Part shown: piece after piece, positions 56,316 to 64,000 of the stretch
Layout: each line of letters begins with the position of its first letter
Numbering within the stretch: position 1 is the first letter of the stretch
DNA from: Acidobacteriaceae bacterium
Lineage (GTDB): Bacteria > Acidobacteriota > Terriglobia > Terriglobales > Acidobacteriaceae
NCBI GenBank assembly: GCA_027449965.1
Contig: DAIDKP010000026.1
Span: 62,001-126,000, forward strand
DNA length: 64,000 bases
Direction: 5' to 3'
The notes under the pieces: model-generated
The model's input: the letters and a program-made list of their open reading frames with translations, nothing else
The model's database searches: none
What the model was told of the DNA's origin: nothing
Position numbers and translations under genes: made by a program

Positions 56316-57029
56316 CTACAAAAAATACATCTCCGTCATCACAAACCCGCGTGCATTCTCCGGGCAGTGCCTGCGACAGGCGTCATCGGGTCCAGGCATC
56401 GGAACCCGGCTCACCGACAACTCCACCTTGCCCGGCGCATAGCGTGTGCTCTCGGCCAGCGGATGCGGGGAGTTGTTGAGCACGACCAGCACATTCATCT
56501 CCGCTCGCAGCTCCACAAAGCTGCCAGCCTTCGAATGATCCGGTTGATAACGCATGGCGCCGGTCTCCTCCACCACCACCTTGCTGAAGAAGTTGACGGT
56601 TGCCTGCAAATCGCGCTCGCCCAGCCCATACTTGGCCAGTTCGGTGATCATGCCGTCGCGTGCATTCTGGTGCCATGCGTTCCGGTGCTCCTGATAGCTG
56701 GTCTTGCCGTACTTGCCTTCGATCCATGCCGCGTTGGTCAGCCCAGCCAGCGGGTCGTGCCAGCCAACCGAGTCTTCCGTGATGGAGCAAAGCACACGGC
56801 CCATATCGCTGAAGAGCACATTGCCTGCGCGAAGCCGCGCCGTATGCTGCGCCTTCAGCGTATCCGGCACATTGAGCCGCTCGGCCGGATTCTCAAAGTT
56901 CAGCATGTAGGCCGCCACGTTGGCTCCGCCTTCCACGTCGACCATTCGCAGAGCCGTGCCCCGCTTCAGCACATGTGACCACGTCGCTCCGCCCATCAGC
57001 ACACTTCGGAACAGCTCAGATCCATCCAT
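56316..57029 (-). CDS. DUF1989 protein; probable carboxyguanidine deiminase subunit (CgdA/UAAP1-like)
   Basis: This 237-residue DUF1989 protein is the first gene of the minus-strand guanidine/urea unit. Family features are [53 protein letters not shown] and [14 protein letters not shown]. The C-terminus ends with [20 protein letters not shown], including two Cys. I chose ATG 57029: it gives the usual 230-residue length and has GGGAGA nine bases upstream; the frame is open further but is Arg-rich and non-conserved. With its partner it would supply the deiminase activity between carboxylase and allophanate hydrolase. Confidence 0.88.
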
Positions 57030-57073
57030 AAATACACGTCTCCCACATGCACGGCTGGCTTCAGCCGTTCGGT

Positions 57074-57149
57074 TCGTTCGCCTGTCTGCTTCTCGTTCGC
57101 CTGCAGGATCTTGCAGCCCGTCGCAGGAACGCTTCGGAATGCGTTCCTG
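57074..57149 (-). promoter_or_regulatory. Leader hairpin and 11-bp direct repeats ahead of DUF1989 gene
   Basis: CAGGAACGC (57124-57132) pairs perfectly with GCGTTCCTG (57141-57149) around an 8-base loop. Closer to the start, TCGTTCGCCTG occurs at 57074-57084 and 57093-57103 with a 19-bp period. Both lie within 120 bases of the start codon, so a regulator site or structured leader is likely. Confidence 0.5.
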
Positions 57150-57634
57150 AACGTTTGGCGGGTGAGCGGCCCAGATTGATGGGTGCGTCATTCCGGCCAT
57201 CCGGCGGCTAGCGTTCCAGGTGGATTTTTTGTGGGGTCGGCGGCCCGCAGCAGACATCCATAAAGGTCATGCGTAACTGAACCTTGATGGACGAACATCG
57301 ATGCATTCTGCGGACTGTCATAGAGGCACAATAGCACGCAATCGAGCCTGCGCAAGCACAAATTTCTATCGGAAGATGCTGGCTTTAAGTCCTTTGCTGT
57401 TAAGCCTTTTGCTCTCAATCCGTATCAATAAATTTTATCCATGCGATGGACGGCGGCGCGTGTGAACCGTCGGTGCGGCGCCTCTTGACCGTGGTCGGAG
57501 TGCAGTCTGGATGATTTGGCTCGCTGTGCGGGTCCAGATGGATGAATTAGGTATTCGATTCGATGTAAGTATTTGATTTTATAATATTTATTTTTATTTC
57601 TGATGTTGGCGTTGAGGTTACCTGGGTGTTACCC

Positions 57635-57648
57635 CCCCCCATGGGGGG
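57635..57648. repeat. Homopolymeric C/G palindrome
   Basis: CCCCCCATGGGGGG is a perfect palindrome within a run of nine C and six G, followed by TATATTATTTTT. It could act as a plus-strand terminator, or the long homopolymers may be prone to slippage. Confidence 0.6.
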
Positions 57649-57867
57649 TATATTATTTTTCTCGCCAACGAAAATATGGCGAAATGTGTACTGAGTTGCA
57701 ATTACGCCTGACTTTGTTTCGCTGCCCTGGCGTGGGCGCAGGCATCCAGCCAGAGCCAGTATGGCACAAACCCCAAGAATAGGATGCAGGCATTGCGTAC
57801 AGCCGATGCGCGTGTGCGCGGTGGCGCTCTCGCTGGGTCGCCGGGCTGGGATGAGGATTGCCGGGAA

Positions 57868-57875
57868 TAATTTTT
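57868..57875. repeat. Target-site duplication, left copy (TAATTTTT)
   Basis: The 8-bp TAATTTTT directly left of the left terminal repeat is identical to 61225-61232 on the right. Eight-base duplications are the norm for the IS1595 family. Confidence 0.9.
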
Positions 57876-57897
57876 CGGAAGTATGCACTTTACGCAA
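57876..57897 (+). repeat. Left terminal inverted repeat of IS1595-type element
   Basis: The 22-bp end starts C then GGAAGTATGCACTTTACGCA plus A. All but the outermost base are the exact reverse complement of 61203-61224. Confidence 0.95.
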
Positions 57898-57911
57898 GGA
57901 GGGTCTGATCT

Positions 57912-58790
57912 ATGATTAGGCCACTCCCGAAGCCGCACCCGTTCTTGCATCCTAAACCAGAGCGGCTTCCAAAACGAGGGTGCATGACAATTGCGTTAGG
58001 AATGCTCTGCCACGGGGGTGCCATTCTCGCCACGGATGGTCGTAGCACATTTCAGGATGGTTCGGCTGCGCGCGGTAGAAAACTTTGTGTGGTCAACGCA
58101 AAAAATATTTCCTTTGCTTTCGCAACTGCTGCTGATGATTTGGATGCCGCTGAAACGCTTGTGCGCAAAACTGCGGCCGCGCTTGGGAAAACAGCAACAG
58201 GCATCAAGGAATGGACGGATGTTGAGGAAGTCATTGCCAGGGAAATGGCAGAATGGGCCTCGGCTTATGGACAGCATTCTTTTCCGATTACTCGGTTGAT
58301 TGCCGGAATCACGATTCCGAGTCAAGGTGTGCGACTGTATTTATGCGAACCTCCGACTACTGTTGTCCATAAAGAAGAAGGGTACATAGCAGTGGGAAGC
58401 GGGGCGATGGTCACTGATCCGCTATTTGCAGCGCTATTTACTCCGCTTTCTCCTACCTGCGGGGCGCAGTATGTTTGCCGTGAAATTGCGTATCTGATGT
58501 ACAGGGCAAAGAAAGACAATATTTATTGCGGAGGACCGACGGACGCCGTGTATTTGAACAGCGTCGATGCATCGGCAACATGGATCAACCCGTGCGACTT
58601 CCATAATGCCGAAGCTGCCTCTTTTCAGCTAGATTTGATCCTTCAGCACACTGCTACGGCGGCATTGACTGATCCGGGGCAATTCTTGGAACACAATGCC
58701 GATTCCGTCAAAGGTGTAATTCTCCAATGCGAAAAGCTCAGAGAGACTATATTCCATACTATTTCAGGGGAAATAATTGGGAGGAAATAA
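57912..58790 (+). CDS. Proteasome-like (Ntn-hydrolase) protein, IS passenger gene
   Basis: This 292-residue protein has a strong AAGGAGG site nine bases before the ATG at 57912. From residue 25 it reads MTIALGMLCHGGAILATDGR, the opening strand pattern of proteasome beta/HslV-type Ntn hydrolases. Thr26 would be the nucleophile, Asp42 (position 17 from Thr) matches the conserved Asp, and Lys57 is close to the catalytic-Lys position. A Gly-rich KEEGYIAVGSGAM block follows, like the family's GSG segment. A second start at ATG 57984 would expose this Thr directly after Met removal; otherwise a 24-residue propeptide would need cleavage. The fold assignment is inference from motifs. No ATPase partner is visible. 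Confidence 0.6.
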   Translation: MIRPLPKPHPFLHPKPERLPKRGCMTIALGMLCHGGAILATDGRSTFQDGSAARGRKLCVVNAKNISFAFATAADDLDAAETLVRKTAAALGKTATGIKEWTDVEEVIAREMAEWASAYGQHSFPITRLIAGITIPSQGVRLYLCEPPTTVVHKEEGYIAVGSGAMVTDPLFAALFTPLSPTCGAQYVCREIAYLMYRAKKDNIYCGGPTDAVYLNSVDASATWINPCDFHNAEAASFQLDLILQHTATAALTDPGQFLEHNADSVKGVILQCEKLRETIFHTISGEIIGRK

Positions 58791-58798
58791 CTTTTTAC

Positions 58799-58827
58799 TT
58801 GACACAACTTGCGCCAAGTCGCATAAT
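58799..58827 (+). promoter_or_regulatory. Transposase promoter with palindrome in the spacer
   Basis: TTGACA (58799-58804), a 17-bp spacer and CATAAT (58822-58827) form a near-consensus sigma70 promoter. The expected start point coincides with the transposase ATG at 58834, giving a leaderless mRNA. Within the spacer, ACTTG-CGC-CAAGT (58807-58819) is a possible operator. Confidence 0.8.
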
Positions 58828-58833
58828 TAAACC

Positions 58834-59790
58834 ATGACAAAGAGAGACCGCAAACATCAGCTTTCCGATTCGCCAGTAGTCGAACAGATTCCCGTTGCGT
58901 GTGCCAATGAACTGGCAGCGGTTGAGTTTCTGGAGCAGATGCGCTGGGGCGCGAATCCCTGCTGCGTTCATTGTGGTAGCGTGGATGTCTACAAGATGGC
59001 CGACGCCAAGACGGGCGAGCGGAACAGTCGGTATCTGTGGCGTTGCCGGGACTGCAAACAGCAGTACACGGTTCGGATTGGTACGGTCTATGAAGAGTCA
59101 AGGATTGAGCTTCGCCATTGGTGCTATACGTTCTGGAGAGCGGCAACATCGAAGAAGGGCGTCTCGGCTCTCGAAATCAAGCGTCACTGCCAGATTTCCT
59201 ACAAGTCGGCCCTGTTCCTGATGAACCGCATTCGCTTTGCGATGGCCCCTGATGGATCTCAGGAGCCTCTGACGGGCGTTGTGGAGTGTGATGAGGTCTA
59301 CATCGGCGGCAAGCCCCGGAACAAGGGCAATAACCCGCGTGGACGCGGAACCCGCAAGACTCCGGTATTCGCAGCGGTCCAGCGGCATGGCGAAATCCGC
59401 CGTCGCGTTGTGGCGAACGTGACAGGTGAGACGCTGAAATCGGCCATCCGTGAAGTTGTAGCCCCATTCGCCCGGATCATGACTGACGAGAACGGCGCAT
59501 ACAACGGTATCGGCAAGGACTTTCTTGGCGGACATTCCAAGGTATGCCACAAGGCTGGAGAATATGCCCGTGGCGATGTTCACACGAACACGGCGGAAAG
59601 CAGCCATGCGCTGCTGAAGCGCAGCATTGTGGGCATCTATCACAACGTCAGCAGCGAATACCTGCATCGGTATCTCTGGCAGGCTGATTTTCTCTGGAAC
59701 GCCCGTAAACTCAATGACGGAGAGCGGACCGTGACGGCAATCAAGGCAGCGGAAGGCAAGCGCATGATGTACCGGCAACCAGCCGCATAG
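58834..59790 (+). CDS. IS1595-family transposase
   Basis: This 318-residue transposase has an N-terminal zinc ribbon (C44-VH-C47 and C71-RD-C74, the latter in WRCRDCKQQY). A helical region follows, then an RNase H-like catalytic core. The core shows ECD153EVYIGG (first Asp), IMTD218ENGAY (second Asp) and HTN252TAE255SSHALLKRSI, the DDEN-type third motif of the IS1595 (ISXO2-like) group. YLHRYLWQADFLWNAR near the end is also typical. No ribosome site is seen before the ATG, consistent with leaderless translation. It appears intact, with no frameshift. Confidence 0.95.
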   Translation: MTKRDRKHQLSDSPVVEQIPVACANELAAVEFLEQMRWGANPCCVHCGSVDVYKMADAKTGERNSRYLWRCRDCKQQYTVRIGTVYEESRIELRHWCYTFWRAATSKKGVSALEIKRHCQISYKSALFLMNRIRFAMAPDGSQEPLTGVVECDEVYIGGKPRNKGNNPRGRGTRKTPVFAAVQRHGEIRRRVVANVTGETLKSAIREVVAPFARIMTDENGAYNGIGKDFLGGHSKVCHKAGEYARGDVHTNTAESSHALLKRSIVGIYHNVSSEYLHRYLWQADFLWNARKLNDGERTVTAIKAAEGKRMMYRQPAA

Positions 59791-59798
59791 GGGAGAGA

Positions 59799-59957
59799 AT
59801 GGCAACTAAGAAGAAAGCGGCAAAGCGGACACCAGCGGCGCGTGCAGGAGCACGGCGCGGGCCTAAGCCCGATACGCTCAAGATCGAAGGCGACTGGAAA
59901 GAGGCGATGAAGAAATCGCTTCAGAAGAAGAAACCGCCCGAAGGATGGCCGAAATAG
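59799..59957 (+). CDS. Small basic protein (52 aa) downstream of transposase
   Basis: This gene starts 8 bases after the transposase stop, with GGGAGAG just upstream of ATG. The product has a Lys/Arg/Ala-rich first half (MATKKKAAKRTPAARAGARR) and then PDTLKIEGDWKEAMKKSL followed by a Lys-rich stretch ending PPEGWPK. It is cytosolic, strongly basic, with no Cys and no membrane segment. It may bind DNA or help transposition, since similar short ORFs sit directly after transposase genes in some related elements; I could not confirm this by search. Its tight coupling to the transposase gene favours a transposition-related role. Confidence 0.75.
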   Translation: MATKKKAAKRTPAARAGARRGPKPDTLKIEGDWKEAMKKSLQKKKPPEGWPK

Positions 59958-59973
59958 GCATGAAGGATGTTCG

Positions 59974-60648
59974 ATGAAAGGTGCGCGTTATCTGATTTTC
60001 GGGGCTGTGGTCGCCTGTGCGTACTGTTCGGCATTTTCACAAAACAGTCCTTCATGTCAGGCCGATCTCCAAGACTTGAAGCTTCCATCGAGGGCCTTTA
60101 TTGACGGTGCGATGGGAGAGAACGAGCCGCCAGTATCGCTGCTTTTCTCGCAAGGTGGCGTAGATGCTTATGCCGCCACAGATTACGAGGCGATCAAAGC
60201 CTTACGCGATAACGGCATATCATCCACCGATGAAGCCGTGACGGTTATCGTCGTCTTCCAAGATGAACAGGTGCGTTCGTCCATAGCAAAACTGCTTGAA
60301 GATGGCGGCGTTAGTCCGGAGAATGCCCAGAAAGTGAAGTTCAAGGTGTTCCAGTTCATGTTGACGCCAATCTGGGTAGATAACGTGCTCGAAAGAAAAT
60401 GGATGATCTCTGGATACGAATATTATGAGCCGTACTCTTGCGTGCCGCCAAGTCAACGGAGGGAGTCACAGGCGCAATACGATTCCGAACTCTGCGCGGC
60501 TACAGATTATTGCCCGAATCAAATCTATGGGATTTTCCCTCTTGGCGGATTACCCCCAAGGATGCGCCTTGTTCCAGAGGACTCGAATGTTCTTAAGGCG
60601 CTTGAAATGATTCGGTCTAAACTGGCTGCCTATGGCCTTCCAAACTAA
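59974..60648 (+). CDS. Hypothetical exported protein, IS passenger
   Basis: This 224-residue protein has a signal peptide (MKGARYLIFGAVVACAYCSA, cleavage near FSQ-NS). The mature part has a Cys pair near the N-terminus (SCQADL) and several more (YSCVPP, LCAATDYCPN). The middle contains TVIVVFQDEQVRSSIAKLLE and a C-terminal LKALEMIRSKLAAYGLPN helix. I do not recognise the family. It lies in the same direction as the transposase and its base composition fits the rest of the element. Periplasmic or secreted location is inferred from the signal peptide. No function can be stated. Confidence 0.7.
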   Translation: MKGARYLIFGAVVACAYCSAFSQNSPSCQADLQDLKLPSRAFIDGAMGENEPPVSLLFSQGGVDAYAATDYEAIKALRDNGISSTDEAVTVIVVFQDEQVRSSIAKLLEDGGVSPENAQKVKFKVFQFMLTPIWVDNVLERKWMISGYEYYEPYSCVPPSQRRESQAQYDSELCAATDYCPNQIYGIFPLGGLPPRMRLVPEDSNVLKALEMIRSKLAAYGLPN

Positions 60649-60741
60649 ACAAACGAGAATGTGTTGCAACGCAAGCGTTCCGGTCTTACGATGCTCTTGA
60701 ATAATCGGTGGGATGCATCGTCTGGAGCGGAGTGGATTAAC

Positions 60742-61200
60742 ATGGCATGGGAAGATGAAGAACTGGCCGCATATGAAAGAAAACGGACAGAAGCAAATGA
60801 ACGGAACCTGCTTTCCGTACAGCGGAACAGGATGTTGGAAGAGCAGCACGAAAAACAATGGATAGCACTGCGTACTGAGATTTTAGAAACCTTTCAACTT
60901 CTAAACGAAAAGGCTGGCCGCATAATCACCCAATCTAGGACGCATCAAGTATATGAATTGCGAATTCAACGGGAAGACAGGGAAGAATTGCAAGCGGAAT
61001 ATGACGCAGAGACCAGGGCTGTCACGTTCACCAGCGAATCAAACTCATTTGATGAAATTTCCTTCGGGCTGACGGTTCACCCAGTTCAAGGAAACGACCG
61101 TCTAGTCTGGAGCACGATAGGGAAGAACTCAGAAGATTTAAGCAAGGAACAGGTATCGAAAAACATTGTCTCTAAATTCCTTCGCGTTGCAACATTCTAA
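60742..61200 (+). CDS. Hypothetical soluble protein, IS passenger
   Basis: This protein of about 152 residues starts MAWEDEELAAYERKRTEANE, an acidic/basic helical segment likely to form a coiled coil to about residue 60. It is followed by beta-like strands (TRAVTFTSESNSFDEISFGL; VQGNDRLVWSTIGK). I chose ATG 60742 because GGAG lies nine bases upstream; longer readings to 60661 lack a ribosome site. There is no signal peptide and no Cys cluster. The stop ends 2 bases before the right terminal repeat. Family unknown. A role with the exported protein gene next to it is possible but unsupported. Confidence 0.6.
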   Translation: MAWEDEELAAYERKRTEANERNLLSVQRNRMLEEQHEKQWIALRTEILETFQLLNEKAGRIITQSRTHQVYELRIQREDREELQAEYDAETRAVTFTSESNSFDEISFGLTVHPVQGNDRLVWSTIGKNSEDLSKEQVSKNIVSKFLRVATF

Positions 61201-61202
61201 GA

Positions 61203-61224
61203 TTGCGTAAAGTGCATACTTCCC
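61203..61224 (-). repeat. Right terminal inverted repeat of IS1595-type element
   Basis: Reverse complement of the left repeat, differing only at the outermost base (G instead of C in the same orientation). Confidence 0.95.
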
Positions 61225-61232
61225 TAATTTTT
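61225..61232. repeat. Target-site duplication, right copy (TAATTTTT)
   Basis: Identical to 57868-57875. Removing the element restores a continuous region upstream of the blaI operator. Confidence 0.9.
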
Positions 61233-61245
61233 TTGCAGGGTAGCT

Positions 61246-61261
61246 AACTAAATCTTTAGTT
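61246..61261. promoter_or_regulatory. BlaI/MecI-type operator
   Basis: AACTAAATCTTTAGTT is a 16-bp palindrome with one mismatch. It has ACTA-N6-TAGT, the same half-sites and spacing as the BlaI/MecI box. It lies 30 bases before the blaI-like start, so autorepression is expected. Confidence 0.75.
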
Positions 61262-61291
61262 GGTGCGTCTGAGTGAGTGGAGGATGCGCTG

Positions 61292-61705
61292 ATGCCGCCG
61301 AAGAAGTCTGCAACCTTGACCGAAGCCGAGCTTCGCCTGATGAAGATTCTGTGGCGACGGGGTGAATCCGGCGTCTCTGATCTGGTGGCGGCCTTGCCGG
61401 AGGAAGAGTCGCTGGCCTACAACTCCGTGCTGACGACGGTGCGCATCCTGGAACGGAAGGGCTATGTGACCCATCGGCAGGAGGGTCGCGCGTTTCTCTA
61501 TGAGGCTGCGGTGGCCGAGCAGGAGGCCGGTCAGTCGGCGGTGCAGCATCTGGTGAGTCGTTTTTTTGGCAACTCGCGCGAGCAGCTCGTGTTATCACTG
61601 CTGGGGGATCGGTCGCTTTCGCCGGAGGAGATTGAGCGGTTGCGAGCGGTGCTGAATGAGGCGGCAGCCGAGAGGCTGGATGCGACCGGGAAGGCGGAGG
61701 AATAA
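61292..61705 (+). CDS. blaI: BlaI/MecI-family transcriptional repressor
   Basis: This 137-residue winged-helix repressor has the family core LTEAELRLMKILWRRGESGV, then NSVLTTVRILERKGYVTHRQEGRAFLY. The C-terminal helices, for dimerisation, include VQHLVSRFF and LSLLGD. BlaI is cleaved or released when its M56 sensor detects a signal. ATG 61292 is chosen because GGAGGA precedes it by 7 bases; an in-frame GTG at 61277 is less likely. The M56 gene follows 3 bases after the stop. The IS1595 element sits about 60 bases upstream, so the native promoter may be altered. Confidence 0.93.
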   Translation: MPPKKSATLTEAELRLMKILWRRGESGVSDLVAALPEEESLAYNSVLTTVRILERKGYVTHRQEGRAFLYEAAVAEQEAGQSAVQHLVSRFFGNSREQLVLSLLGDRSLSPEEIERLRAVLNEAAAERLDATGKAEE

Positions 61706-61708
61706 GCG

Positions 61709-63334
61709 ATGACCCATCTTTTGCTGACAGGCCTGCCGCTTTGGATCGTCTGGCTGGATGCATCGCCGCTGATGGGCTTTGCGCATACATTGACGCGGCT
61801 TGCGCTGGATGGAGTTGCGCTGAGCGTGGCGCTGGGTGGGATTTGCCTGCTGGCGCTGCCAGCGCTGCCGCTGATGCGCCGGTTGAGCGCGAGGCTGCGC
61901 TTCCGTGTGCTGGTGGCGGGATATTTGCTGGCCGCGCTGCTGCCGCTGGTGGTGATGGCCTGGCCGCATTCGGGGCTGGGCAGTCACGCTGCCGCTGCGG
62001 TCATCGGGCCGGTCGCCGACGCAGCCGTCACCGGAGCAGGGACTGCGATTCAGATCGGGTCCGGAGTGGCGCTGCTCGTTGGCTTGCTGTGGATGGGGCT
62101 TTCGCTGGCCTATGCGATGCGTCTGCTGGCGCAGTCGATGCGCATGAGCGCGGTGCGCCGGGCCGCTGAGCCACTGCCTTTGGAGTTAGTTCCGGCGATT
62201 TCCTGCCCGGTGGCGCTTGCGGATGGAATCGATACGCCGTGTCTGGTGGGCGTTCTGAGGCCGATGATCCTGATTCCGCGACGGCTGCCGGAGCAGATCG
62301 TCCCGCGCCAGCTGGCCGCGGTGCTGGCGCATGAGGCGGCTCATCTGCGCCGCCTGGATCTGTGGGTGAATCTGGCGCAGAAGCTGGTGCTGCTTGCGTT
62401 TCCGCTGCATCCGATGCTCTATCTGCTGGATCGCTGGCTGTGCCGCGAACGCGAGCTGGCCTGCGATGAGATGGTGCTTGGGCTGCGGCATGAGCCGATC
62501 GACTACGCTTCGAGTCTGGTGGATGTGGCGGCGTTTTCGCTGAATCGCCCGGCGGTCAGTCTGTCGTTTGGACTGGTGCGCTCGCGGTCGGAGCTGGCTG
62601 CCCGCATCGAGCGTATTCTGCGTCCTCAGCCCCGCCTGCATCCTGTCCTGGCAGTGCTGCTGACAGTGGCGTTGGCGGCGGGTGCCGGGACGCTTACGAC
62701 GGAGGCGCTCAAGCATCTTCCGACGCTTGCGTTTGCGCCACTTCAGGCTGCGCCTGCTGGTCTGAGTGAGCCTACTCGTCTGGCTGCCGCCGGGCCGGTG
62801 GTGGGCGAGACGACGCTCCGCCCGGCTCAGAAGATCGAGACGGCGTATCGCATTCCGCCTGCCGAGCGCTTTCCGGCGCGCCTGCTTCGCGCGGCTTCTT
62901 CGATGCGTGGGACGGGCGTTGCCTCTGGCGCGCGGACGATGAAGGGATCGGTGGATCGCGGGCCTGCGTCGGCTGCCCTGGCGGCGATGCCGGTGGCTGC
63001 GCGACGGAACGCGCGCTGGGCACCGCAGATCGCAGAGCCGATGGCCGGGCAGATGGCCGAGGCAAGCACAGAGTACGCCGTGGTGGTGGTGATGACTGCG
63101 GTGACCACGACGACCGATGCTTCGCCGGATCGCTTGCTGGCGGGTGACGAAGAACGATCCGCGCCAACGGCAGAGGCTTTCGGCGAAGCTCCGATTACGC
63201 CGCAGCCGCCGTCCGGTGCGAGTCTGCGACGATCCGCGACAAGTTTCTACTTCACGGTTGTCACCACCACGCTTCGGCTGACTCCGGCGCAACGCGCGCG
63301 GATCTCGCCGCAGTGGTTGGCGCGACAGCTTTAA
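61709..63334 (+). CDS. M56-family BlaR1-like membrane metallopeptidase
   Basis: This 541-residue protein has N-terminal membrane segments at about 30-55, 65-85 and 108-133. The zinc protease motif is H208-EAA-H212 in VLAHEAAHLRRLD, with the Glu in the following CRERELACDEMV block. A fourth membrane segment lies near 312-333 (LHPVLAVLLTVALAAGAG). It matches the M56/BlaR1 signal-transducing peptidases but lacks the C-terminal penicillin-sensor domain. Instead the last 200 residues are Ala/Thr/Pro-rich with no recognisable fold. It would inactivate the neighbouring BlaI in response to an unknown periplasmic cue. The ribosome site GGAGGAAT overlaps the blaI stop region. Confidence 0.9.
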   Translation: MTHLLLTGLPLWIVWLDASPLMGFAHTLTRLALDGVALSVALGGICLLALPALPLMRRLSARLRFRVLVAGYLLAALLPLVVMAWPHSGLGSHAAAAVIGPVADAAVTGAGTAIQIGSGVALLVGLLWMGLSLAYAMRLLAQSMRMSAVRRAAEPLPLELVPAISCPVALADGIDTPCLVGVLRPMILIPRRLPEQIVPRQLAAVLAHEAAHLRRLDLWVNLAQKLVLLAFPLHPMLYLLDRWLCRERELACDEMVLGLRHEPIDYASSLVDVAAFSLNRPAVSLSFGLVRSRSELAARIERILRPQPRLHPVLAVLLTVALAAGAGTLTTEALKHLPTLAFAPLQAAPAGLSEPTRLAAAGPVVGETTLRPAQKIETAYRIPPAERFPARLLRAASSMRGTGVASGARTMKGSVDRGPASAALAAMPVAARRNARWAPQIAEPMAGQMAEASTEYAVVVVMTAVTTTTDASPDRLLAGDEERSAPTAEAFGEAPITPQPPSGASLRRSATSFYFTVVTTTLRLTPAQRARISPQWLARQL

Positions 63335-63374
63335 TCCCCTTCAACCGAAGCATCCACAAAAGGAGAAGAACATC

Positions 63375-64000
63375 ATGGAAACAAAAACTAATCGATTAGT
63401 TGAATCTCTCAGGCGATGGGCGCTTCCGGGCGCCGTGTCCGCAGTGATTGTCTCTGGTGCGAGTCTGGGCATGTGGAGCCATTTCACCGCCGTTCATGCG
63501 GCGAGCGCTGCGGTTTCGCCGATCGATGACAGCAGCGTCTCCGCGCTGGAGTCGCTGGACAACGCAGTGGAGGCGGTGGCTGCGCGTGTGACGCCGACGG
63601 TGGTCAACGTGTCGGTGACGGCGCGCCCGGGCAACGAGGGCGATGCGGAGGATGGGCAGGGTTCCGGTCCGCAGCCGGGCATGCCGCAGGGGATGCCGCC
63701 GGGCCAGTTGCCGCCGGGACTGCAACAGTTTTTCTTTGGCGGGCCGGGTATGCAGCAGCCGCCGCAGAATCCGGTGGAACATGCGGTGGGCAGCGGCGTC
63801 ATCATCTCGCCGGACGGATACATTCTGACCAACAATCACGTGATCCACGGCGCGGTGAATATTCAGGTGACGCTGGATGACCGGCGCGTCTTTCCAGCGA
63901 AGCTGGTGGGAGCGGACAAGCTGACGGACCTGGCTGTGCTGAAGATCAACGCGACCCGCCTGCCGTTCATTGGCTGGGGCAACTCGGCGAATCTTCATCC
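63375..64000 (+). CDS. HtrA/DegP-type serine protease, 3' end outside window
   Basis: The gene starts at ATG 63375, with AAAGGAGAAG upstream, and is open to the window end (208 codons seen). A hydrophobic N-terminal anchor or signal (about 15-35, VSAVIVSGASLGMW) is followed by a Gly/Pro/Gln/Met-rich linker (about 90-130). The trypsin-like core follows: GSGVIISPDGYILTNNH155V carries the catalytic His and KLTD185LAVLKI the Asp. The catalytic Ser and any PDZ domains lie beyond the edge. HtrA proteases degrade misfolded envelope proteins. Its place 40 bases after the M56 gene suggests co-regulation by BlaI. Confidence 0.93.
   Translation, partial: METKTNRLVESLRRWALPGAVSAVIVSGASLGMWSHFTAVHAASAAVSPIDDSSVSALESLDNAVEAVAARVTPTVVNVSVTARPGNEGDAEDGQGSGPQPGMPQGMPPGQLPPGLQQFFFGGPGMQQPPQNPVEHAVGSGVIISPDGYILTNNHVIHGAVNIQVTLDDRRVFPAKLVGADKLTDLAVLKINATRLPFIGWGNSANLH

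Follow-up and report, generated by a model that had tools for sequence, protein, structure and literature searches.

A proteasome-like hydrolase gene recurs as cargo of IS1- and IS1595-type elements in Acidobacteriota

The stretch of DNA analysed here (the window) comprises 64,000 nucleotides of an Acidobacteriaceae bacterium (contig DAIDKP010000026.1), and its positions 57876-61224 hold an intact insertion sequence (IS) of the IS1595 type, 3349 bp long, which carries a gene for a proteasome-like N-terminal nucleophile (Ntn) hydrolase beside one of its ends. What is a proteasome-like gene doing in such an element, and is the arrangement a singular event? Members of the Ntn family turn up in three element groups of IS1 or IS1595 type, so the case in the window is no one-off. 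We consider it fairly probable that the gene is exchangeable IS cargo encoding a protease, whose function would perhaps lie in genetic conflict. The element has paired ends, a target duplication, a full transposase and four further open reading frames (ORFs), laid out as follows.

57868..57875, no strand: 8-bp target duplication TAATTTTT, left copy
57876..57897, forward strand: left terminal inverted repeat, 22 bp, with similar ends in 20 further paired-end elements
57912..58790, forward strand: proteasome-like Ntn hydrolase, 292 amino acids (aa), by Pfam Proteasome, active-site residues and predicted fold
58834..59790, forward strand: IS1595-family transposase, 318 aa, by Pfam and NCBIfam matches
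59799..59957, forward strand: basic ORF of 52 aa, conserved companion of the group-A transposase, by recurrence in relatives
59974..60648, forward strand: ORF of 224 aa whose N-terminus resembles a signal peptide by eye
60661..61200, forward strand: ORF of 179 aa from a GTG, or 152 aa from the ATG at 60742, with no family above curated cut-off
61203..61224, reverse strand: right terminal inverted repeat, 22 bp
61225..61232, no strand: right copy of the 8-bp target duplication, TAATTTTT

A preliminary description of this DNA had proposed an intact IS1595-family element of foreign composition, and both proposals held. The terminal repeats agree at 21 of 22 positions, the inner 21 bp being identical, and the 8-bp duplication is exact on both sides. 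Within 3 mismatches, the inner 21 bp of the ends have no other site in the window (0 expected in shuffles). The transposase matches DDE_Tnp_IS1595 (PF12762) at 7.6e-34, Zn_ribbon_IS1595 (PF12760) at 7.3e-12 and NCBIfam transpos_IS1595 (NF033547) at 1.3e-49, all beyond the curated cut-offs. Asp153, Asp218, Glu255 and Asn289 are present, together with Lys262 at Glu+7, and make the transposase a candidate for the DDEN-type label. Short inverted ends and an 8-bp target duplication are a trait of the IS1595 family, and the element combines them with a zinc-ribbon DDE transposase. Its GC content is 0.517, as compared with 0.620 in the remaining window.

The proteasome-like character of the 292-aa protein, also part of the preliminary description, was borne out by a Pfam Proteasome match of 2.4e-7, above the curated cut-off, and by its predicted fold. 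Thr26, Asp42 and Lys57 correspond to Thr1, Asp17 and Lys33 of the proteasome at nearly the same spacing, and the Thr/Asp/Lys active site is invariant across 15 relatives. In a wider alignment of 58 proteins the nucleophile position holds Thr in 52, Ser in 3, Ala in 1 and a gap in 2; the Asp position is Asp in 57 with 1 gap, and the Lys position is Lys in 53, Arg in 3 and a gap in 2. In a sequence comparison, the top hits of the family profile were proteasome beta subunits, led by 3h4p chain a at 1e-13. A structure model of the window protein, built with 15 sequences, reached a predicted local distance difference test score (pLDDT) of 78.3, and Foldseek placed Anbu 5nyg first (E 2.9e-12, template modelling score 0.79 by target length), with 20S also matched. 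The active-site residues and, in the predicted model, the beta-subunit fold are both those of a proteasome-like Ntn protein, and the product is probably an active hydrolase.

Where do relatives of this gene sit? A search with the window protein matched 16 of 299 genomes of its class, probably Terriglobia, and a 15-row profile matched 92 of 398 class genomes at E<=1e-4; many of the weak profile matches are probably ordinary HslV or Anbu. Thirteen of the 15 profile rows had been found by similarity to the window gene and the other two, L096 and L050, via ends or transposase, and L034, L041 and L052 were excluded from profile A4. At E<=5e-14 there were 55 match rows, two of which are pieces of one gene (G102), giving 54 loci. 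Of these, 53 were taken together with their flanks, each as long as ~9 kb if the contig extended that far. The 54th, L037, lies on a 3958-bp contig of G210 with an Ntn domain at 3e-15 and no transposase, and is counted among the 54; its proteasome-like domain stands inside an open frame of ~930 codons, unlike other copies. Profile matches weaker than E 5e-14 are not in the census, and L044, a weak window-protein match missing from the profile list, was dropped.

By profile detection, an IS1 or IS1595 transposase lies within 1.5 kb of the gene at 33 of the 54 loci (16 IS1, 17 IS1595), and when the 14 loci that supplied profile rows are excluded one is still nearby in 25 of 40. Across the 53 loci, the 152,759 bases near the gene contain 34 transposase matches and the 695,499 bases farther out contain 1, this sole farther match being the group-A transposase of an interrupted element (L187). 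Ends agreeing at 15 or more of 18 positions with an exact adjacent duplication were found at 24 of the 33 transposase-bearing loci. None of 49 control windows displaced by 5.5 kb showed such a combination (49 of 66 possible windows fitted inside the available stretches), and 1 of 20 transposase-less loci did (L190 = L096). Chance neighbourhood of the gene and transposases was rejected on the near and far transposase densities and on the ends and duplications as compared with controls. The 24 elements comprise 11 of IS1 type, 10 of IS1595 group B and 3 of group A, the group of the window's element, and in 21 of them the gene adjoins an end, its profile match starting no more than 200 bp from the tip. 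Three end types recur: window-like ends, GGTAGTGGGTCAGTTTGA-like ends with IS1 and CAKGATTATTCACTTGAC-like ends with IS1595 group B. One such motif also stands beside the gene at five more transposase-less loci, as a single motif with no chance control, and a transposase or recognisable end is present at 39 of the 54 loci. No Ntn match came from the plasmid or phage collections, and none from viral contigs, for which the window gene was the only query. In a phylum sample of 199 genomes, whose make-up is partly listed, there were 2 matches at E<=1e-10, the source genome and one genome of the same family.

To which elements is the one in the window related? Scanning genome contigs with the transposase alignment gave 16 loci, 15 in Acidobacteriota and one distant outlier in Chitinophagaceae (33%), which was excluded from the group. 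The 15 Acidobacteriota transposases are 69-85% identical, one of them merely a short end piece; the named carriers are mostly Terriglobia or unspecified Acidobacteria, with one record called Chloracidobacterium that NCBI places in Blastocatellia. When the end sequences were searched with at most 2 mismatches in 399 class genomes, 31 had matches and the reversed control matched in 3, one each. Group A, as defined here, consists of 21 paired-end elements including that of the window. Their ends pair at 16-22 of 22 positions, and 17 of the 21 have an exact 8-bp duplication; the exceptions are one element at the end of its contig, one with Ns and two that show no duplication. This is a group of cargo-swapping elements, found only in Acidobacteriota among the data searched.

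The preliminary description had counted four unrelated passengers. Four ORFs do fill the element and passengers are among them, but as a set of four unrelated passengers they were rejected, for the 52-aa ORF is constant in the group. A small ORF stands 3' of the transposase in all 15 Acidobacteriota loci and in L090, L093, L094, L095 and L101, and it is also present beside two incomplete group-A loci, L027 and L028; a more distant relative, L029 (48% identical), has no convincing copy. Its recurrence downstream of the transposase across the loci of the group marks the 52-aa ORF as a partner of the transposase in group A and not an unrelated passenger. Other group-A cargo consists of an NYN nuclease, a NucS-type nuclease, a PADLOC candidate family, membrane proteins, small proteins that look zinc-binding by eye, or nothing recognisable. 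In one further group-A element (L049:4040-9665) the Ntn gene is interrupted. Between its two pieces lie another IS1595 transposase, a RelA/SpoT-domain gene (3.9e-15) and one small ORF, similar to GIY-YIG nucleases by eye only, for which Pfam gave nothing convincing. Four units without transposase, L091, L096, L097 and L099, possess group-A ends and exact 8-bp duplications.

The start codon of the Ntn gene is base 37 of the window element, and in six group-A elements it lies at base 36-39 (in L050 as an ATG inside the listed frame). A complete promoter would hardly fit into the space before it, so that expression is likely to depend on where the element has inserted, and transcription would need a promoter outside the element or one half inside its end.

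In 151 class genomes the 224-aa gene has, itself apart, a single relative, which is 30% identical and lies inside L275, another element of IS1595 type that has ends and a duplication of its own. L275 also carries a DUF2513 gene (L275:3393-6603). A family search with the 179-aa ORF gave nothing above cut-off. A search for other copies with the same passenger set had been proposed in the preliminary description; the exact set was not found elsewhere, and relatives of two of its genes, the Ntn and the 224-aa gene, do occur in other elements with ends and duplications and with other transposase groups, as expected of a transporter IS.

We measured carriage by transposase searches in which 30 loci were taken per search, one per genome, with seven group-B loci added. 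Among the 11 best group-B transposase matches in 151 class genomes, the partner slot is occupied by a proteasome-like ORF in 10 and by a 403-aa membrane protein in the eleventh, the element L283:3647-6009. Four of the ten Ntn ORFs have strong profile scores; the other six are weaker at a search space of 1000 (L277 9e-11, L282 4e-8, L281 3e-6, L278 2e-4, L279 6e-3, L280 none). L280 is truncated at the end of its contig, and its Pfam Proteasome match of 0.0034 stays below cut-off. A model of the divergent L279, the weakest of the complete ORFs (pLDDT 69.9), matched the proteasome fold, with a best E of 6.1e-9.

Does the gene stay with one kind of transposase? On a quick tree of 52 Ntn proteins the element labels, with 'none' as one label, are mixed, requiring 25 changes as compared with a minimum of 3. 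Supported pairs cross the types: L176 (IS1) with L139 (IS1595-B), and L143 (IS1) with L050 (group A). Ntn and transposase distances were unrelated in Mantel tests, at low power (r -0.01 for IS1, n=12; r -0.03 for group B, n=11). The L096 gene, 67% identical to that of the window, gives a dN/dS (nonsynonymous over synonymous substitution rates) of 0.243/1.318, about 0.18. L096 aligns to the window element from the left end through the Ntn gene and then along the last 49 bases of the 52-aa ORF; 1127 bases including the transposase are missing and the Ntn gene is kept.

From the sequence we have the boundaries, the recurrence, the mixing of element types on the tree, an intact active site and a predicted fold. 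On this basis the following mechanism can be proposed. From knowledge of the family and from the observed junctions, the DDE transposase would act on the 22-bp ends, duplicate 8 bp of target and move everything between. In group A the transposase and the 52-aa ORF are the constant parts and the remainder is exchangeable cargo. The proteasome-like gene belongs to a fast-diverging Ntn-hydrolase family that is a frequent cargo of elements of the IS1/IS1595 superfamily, mostly beside one end, and that appears to have been exchanged across element types as well as inside a given slot. The product would be active as a Thr protease, or as a related hydrolase, and probably oligomeric. The exchange independent of the transposase, the fast divergence, the survival in a transposase-less derivative and the other kinds of cargo suggest that it acts on proteins of the cell or of invaders rather than on its own transposase, and the carrier may gain an advantage, for example in defence or conflict. 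A wider claim, which we put forward tentatively, is that IS1/IS1595 elements of Acidobacteriota carry an interchangeable arsenal for conflict or defence, above all proteasome-like proteases, that these elements are the main home of the family, and that the family is shuffled through the slot beside the end in the manner of integron cassettes.

Several results weigh against the protease as an exchangeable cargo with a role of its own. Neither a transposase nor a recognisable end was found at 15 of the 54 loci, and the host genomes are mostly drafts. The gene is within ~1.5 kb at 8 of 30 IS1-type loci, four of the eight being query rows, and it is present in 7 of the 17 transposase-bearing paired-end group-A elements, the seven including L048 (broken by Ns), L049 (interrupted) and L052 (divergent, on the other side). 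The group-B query was built from six carriers, one of which is among the 11 best matches, and the 23 lower-ranking loci of that search (L219-L241) gave no Ntn profile match. The labels on the tree are slightly more clustered than in shuffles (25 changes as compared with a mean of 28.4, a value as low in 9 of 200), and the tree itself is a quick one with long branches, 19 of its 49 inner branches being open. Ntn identities of 13-33% within the IS1 and IS1595-B sets make the Mantel tests and the deep branches weak. L281, a group-B copy, has Ala at the nucleophile position, and L096 may have lost its transposase in place without later movement. Three Ntn proteins compared with PADLOC models gave no match to a described defence family.

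The defence reading of the other cargo is weak as well. In a first set of 10 proteins, the three Ntn proteins included, 4 matched PADLOC models at E<=0.1: L053 (PDC-S42, 3e-46), L045 (NYN, 6e-14), L049 over part of the length (5e-13) and L054 (2e-4). A second set of 10, with 8 proteins from the neighbourhoods of Ntn genes without IS1/IS1595 transposase and 2 slot proteins of other elements, gave 4 matches at E<=0.01, with no random-protein control. The L053 protein is the product of a group-A cargo gene (L053:1339-2283), and PDC-S42 is a PADLOC candidate family. Near the transposase-less Ntn loci L148, L158 and L141, KAP/QatA-like NTPase, Mrr/LmuA-like and PycTM-like proteins occur within a few kb, again with no control.

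Could the protease instead serve the element? The Ntn protein would then be a regulator, tuning transposition through degradation of the transposase or of some host factor, and would be part of the transposition machinery. Lon acts on IS transposases. The Ntn partner in 10 of 11 best matches of one IS1595 subgroup would fit such a role, as would the size of several elements of just 2.0-2.6 kb, with little space beyond the Ntn gene and the transposase, and the tie of the gene to two related transposase families. Against it, Ntn distances do not track those of the transposases, within the low power already given, and supported branches unite IS1-borne and IS1595-borne Ntn genes. Moreover, 22 of 30 IS1-type loci do without the gene, L283 has its membrane protein instead, and the derivative L096 retains the gene after its transposase is gone. 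We regard the regulator as doubtful.

That compact elements gather nearby genes at random, the Ntn family being a common cargo with no function, we find quite improbable. Cargo is diverse, some Ntn copies are partial or contain a stop, and the transposase-less L091, L097 and L099 carry just small uncharacterised ORFs (L091:1513-2633, L097:1485-1831 and L099:4598-5097), all of which would suit a neutral hitchhiker. A single family, however, recurs beside an end in three element groups, its active site is kept in nearly all copies, and the dN/dS of ~0.18 between the window gene and L096 also speaks against a gene without function. That the association reflects draft assemblies, a biased search or repeats is barely credible and largely contradicted by the controls. 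In favour of such an artefact are the draft state of most genomes, a profile that started from a gene borne on a transposon, and two of its 15 rows that came via ends or transposase. Against it, the other 13 rows were obtained solely by similarity to the window gene, five of them lacking a transposase; 25 of the 40 loci outside the profile rows still have one; exact ends and duplications separate 24 of 33 loci from 0 of 49 controls; and L153 lies in a single-contig genome (G410).

How does an exchangeable IS cargo of this kind compare with known systems? Like the 'transporter IS' of the IS1595 family, in the part of PMC3129680 that describes them, the element has a zinc-ribbon and DDE transposase, inverted ends, an 8-bp duplication and passengers; unlike them, its group has a constant 52-aa companion, a proteasome-like gene beside the end and varying cargo. 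L096, L091, L097 and L099, transposase-less from end to end and with duplications, are like the mobile insertion cassettes (MICs) and miniature inverted-repeat transposable elements (MITEs) covered in the same part of that paper, with the difference that L096 retains a conserved protease gene. The protein shares with Anbu, HslV and 20S beta subunits the predicted fold, the Thr1/Asp17/Lys33 residues and the profile match, whereas it differs from them in being IS-borne, in a Pro-rich N-terminal leader and in extreme divergence. No unfoldase gene was seen in the window element.

In the sections of Fuchs et al. 2021 (PMC8665760) considered here, 22 new proteasome-like subfamilies are reported, orphan homologs without assigned function for which the authors found no genomic context suggestive of one; two, PPH and AAH, are phage-borne. 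The main text of that paper contains no words starting with transpos- or Acidobacter-. The window family can be likened to these subfamilies by their description there. No report of an association between IS and proteasome-like genes was found in the open-access literature searched (IS1595 with proteasome; proteasome-like with transposase and bacteria). The class of element is known and the enzyme superfamily is known, and within that open-access scope their recurrent union was found nowhere reported. Frequent residence in an IS gives one family of orphan proteasome homologs a genomic context, a map of boundaries and a testable role in defence, conflict or transposition control, and suggests that elements of just ~1.4-3.5 kb can serve as exchange platforms for enzymes.

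The locus itself can be compared with a genome that lacks the element. The source genome, ~95% complete, has one copy of it and no third terminal repeat within 3 mismatches. In G014, a genome of the same genus, the syntenic flanks are 85-86% similar/identical and the element is absent, with homology in the right flank restarting at the target duplication. The left intergenic stretch of G014 differs from the window, so the empty site sought since the preliminary description was obtained in approximate and not base-perfect form. That description would have been undermined by the lack of any other copy or empty site anywhere, or by the same passenger order in the absence of terminal repeats; neither result occurred, and related elements and an element-free genome were both found. 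At the syntenic locus of G014 (L193:3028-3287) the left intergenic stretch has short A/G-rich repeats, GCAAAGGCAGAA-like, that are absent from the window. The source genome also holds an IS1-type transposase (G000:C7:3251-4078, L256) with no proteasome-like gene within 1.5 kb on either side. In the window, across 57001-64000, the GC skew, negative at first, becomes positive at about 57 kb, a point not far from the element and from a change of gene direction.

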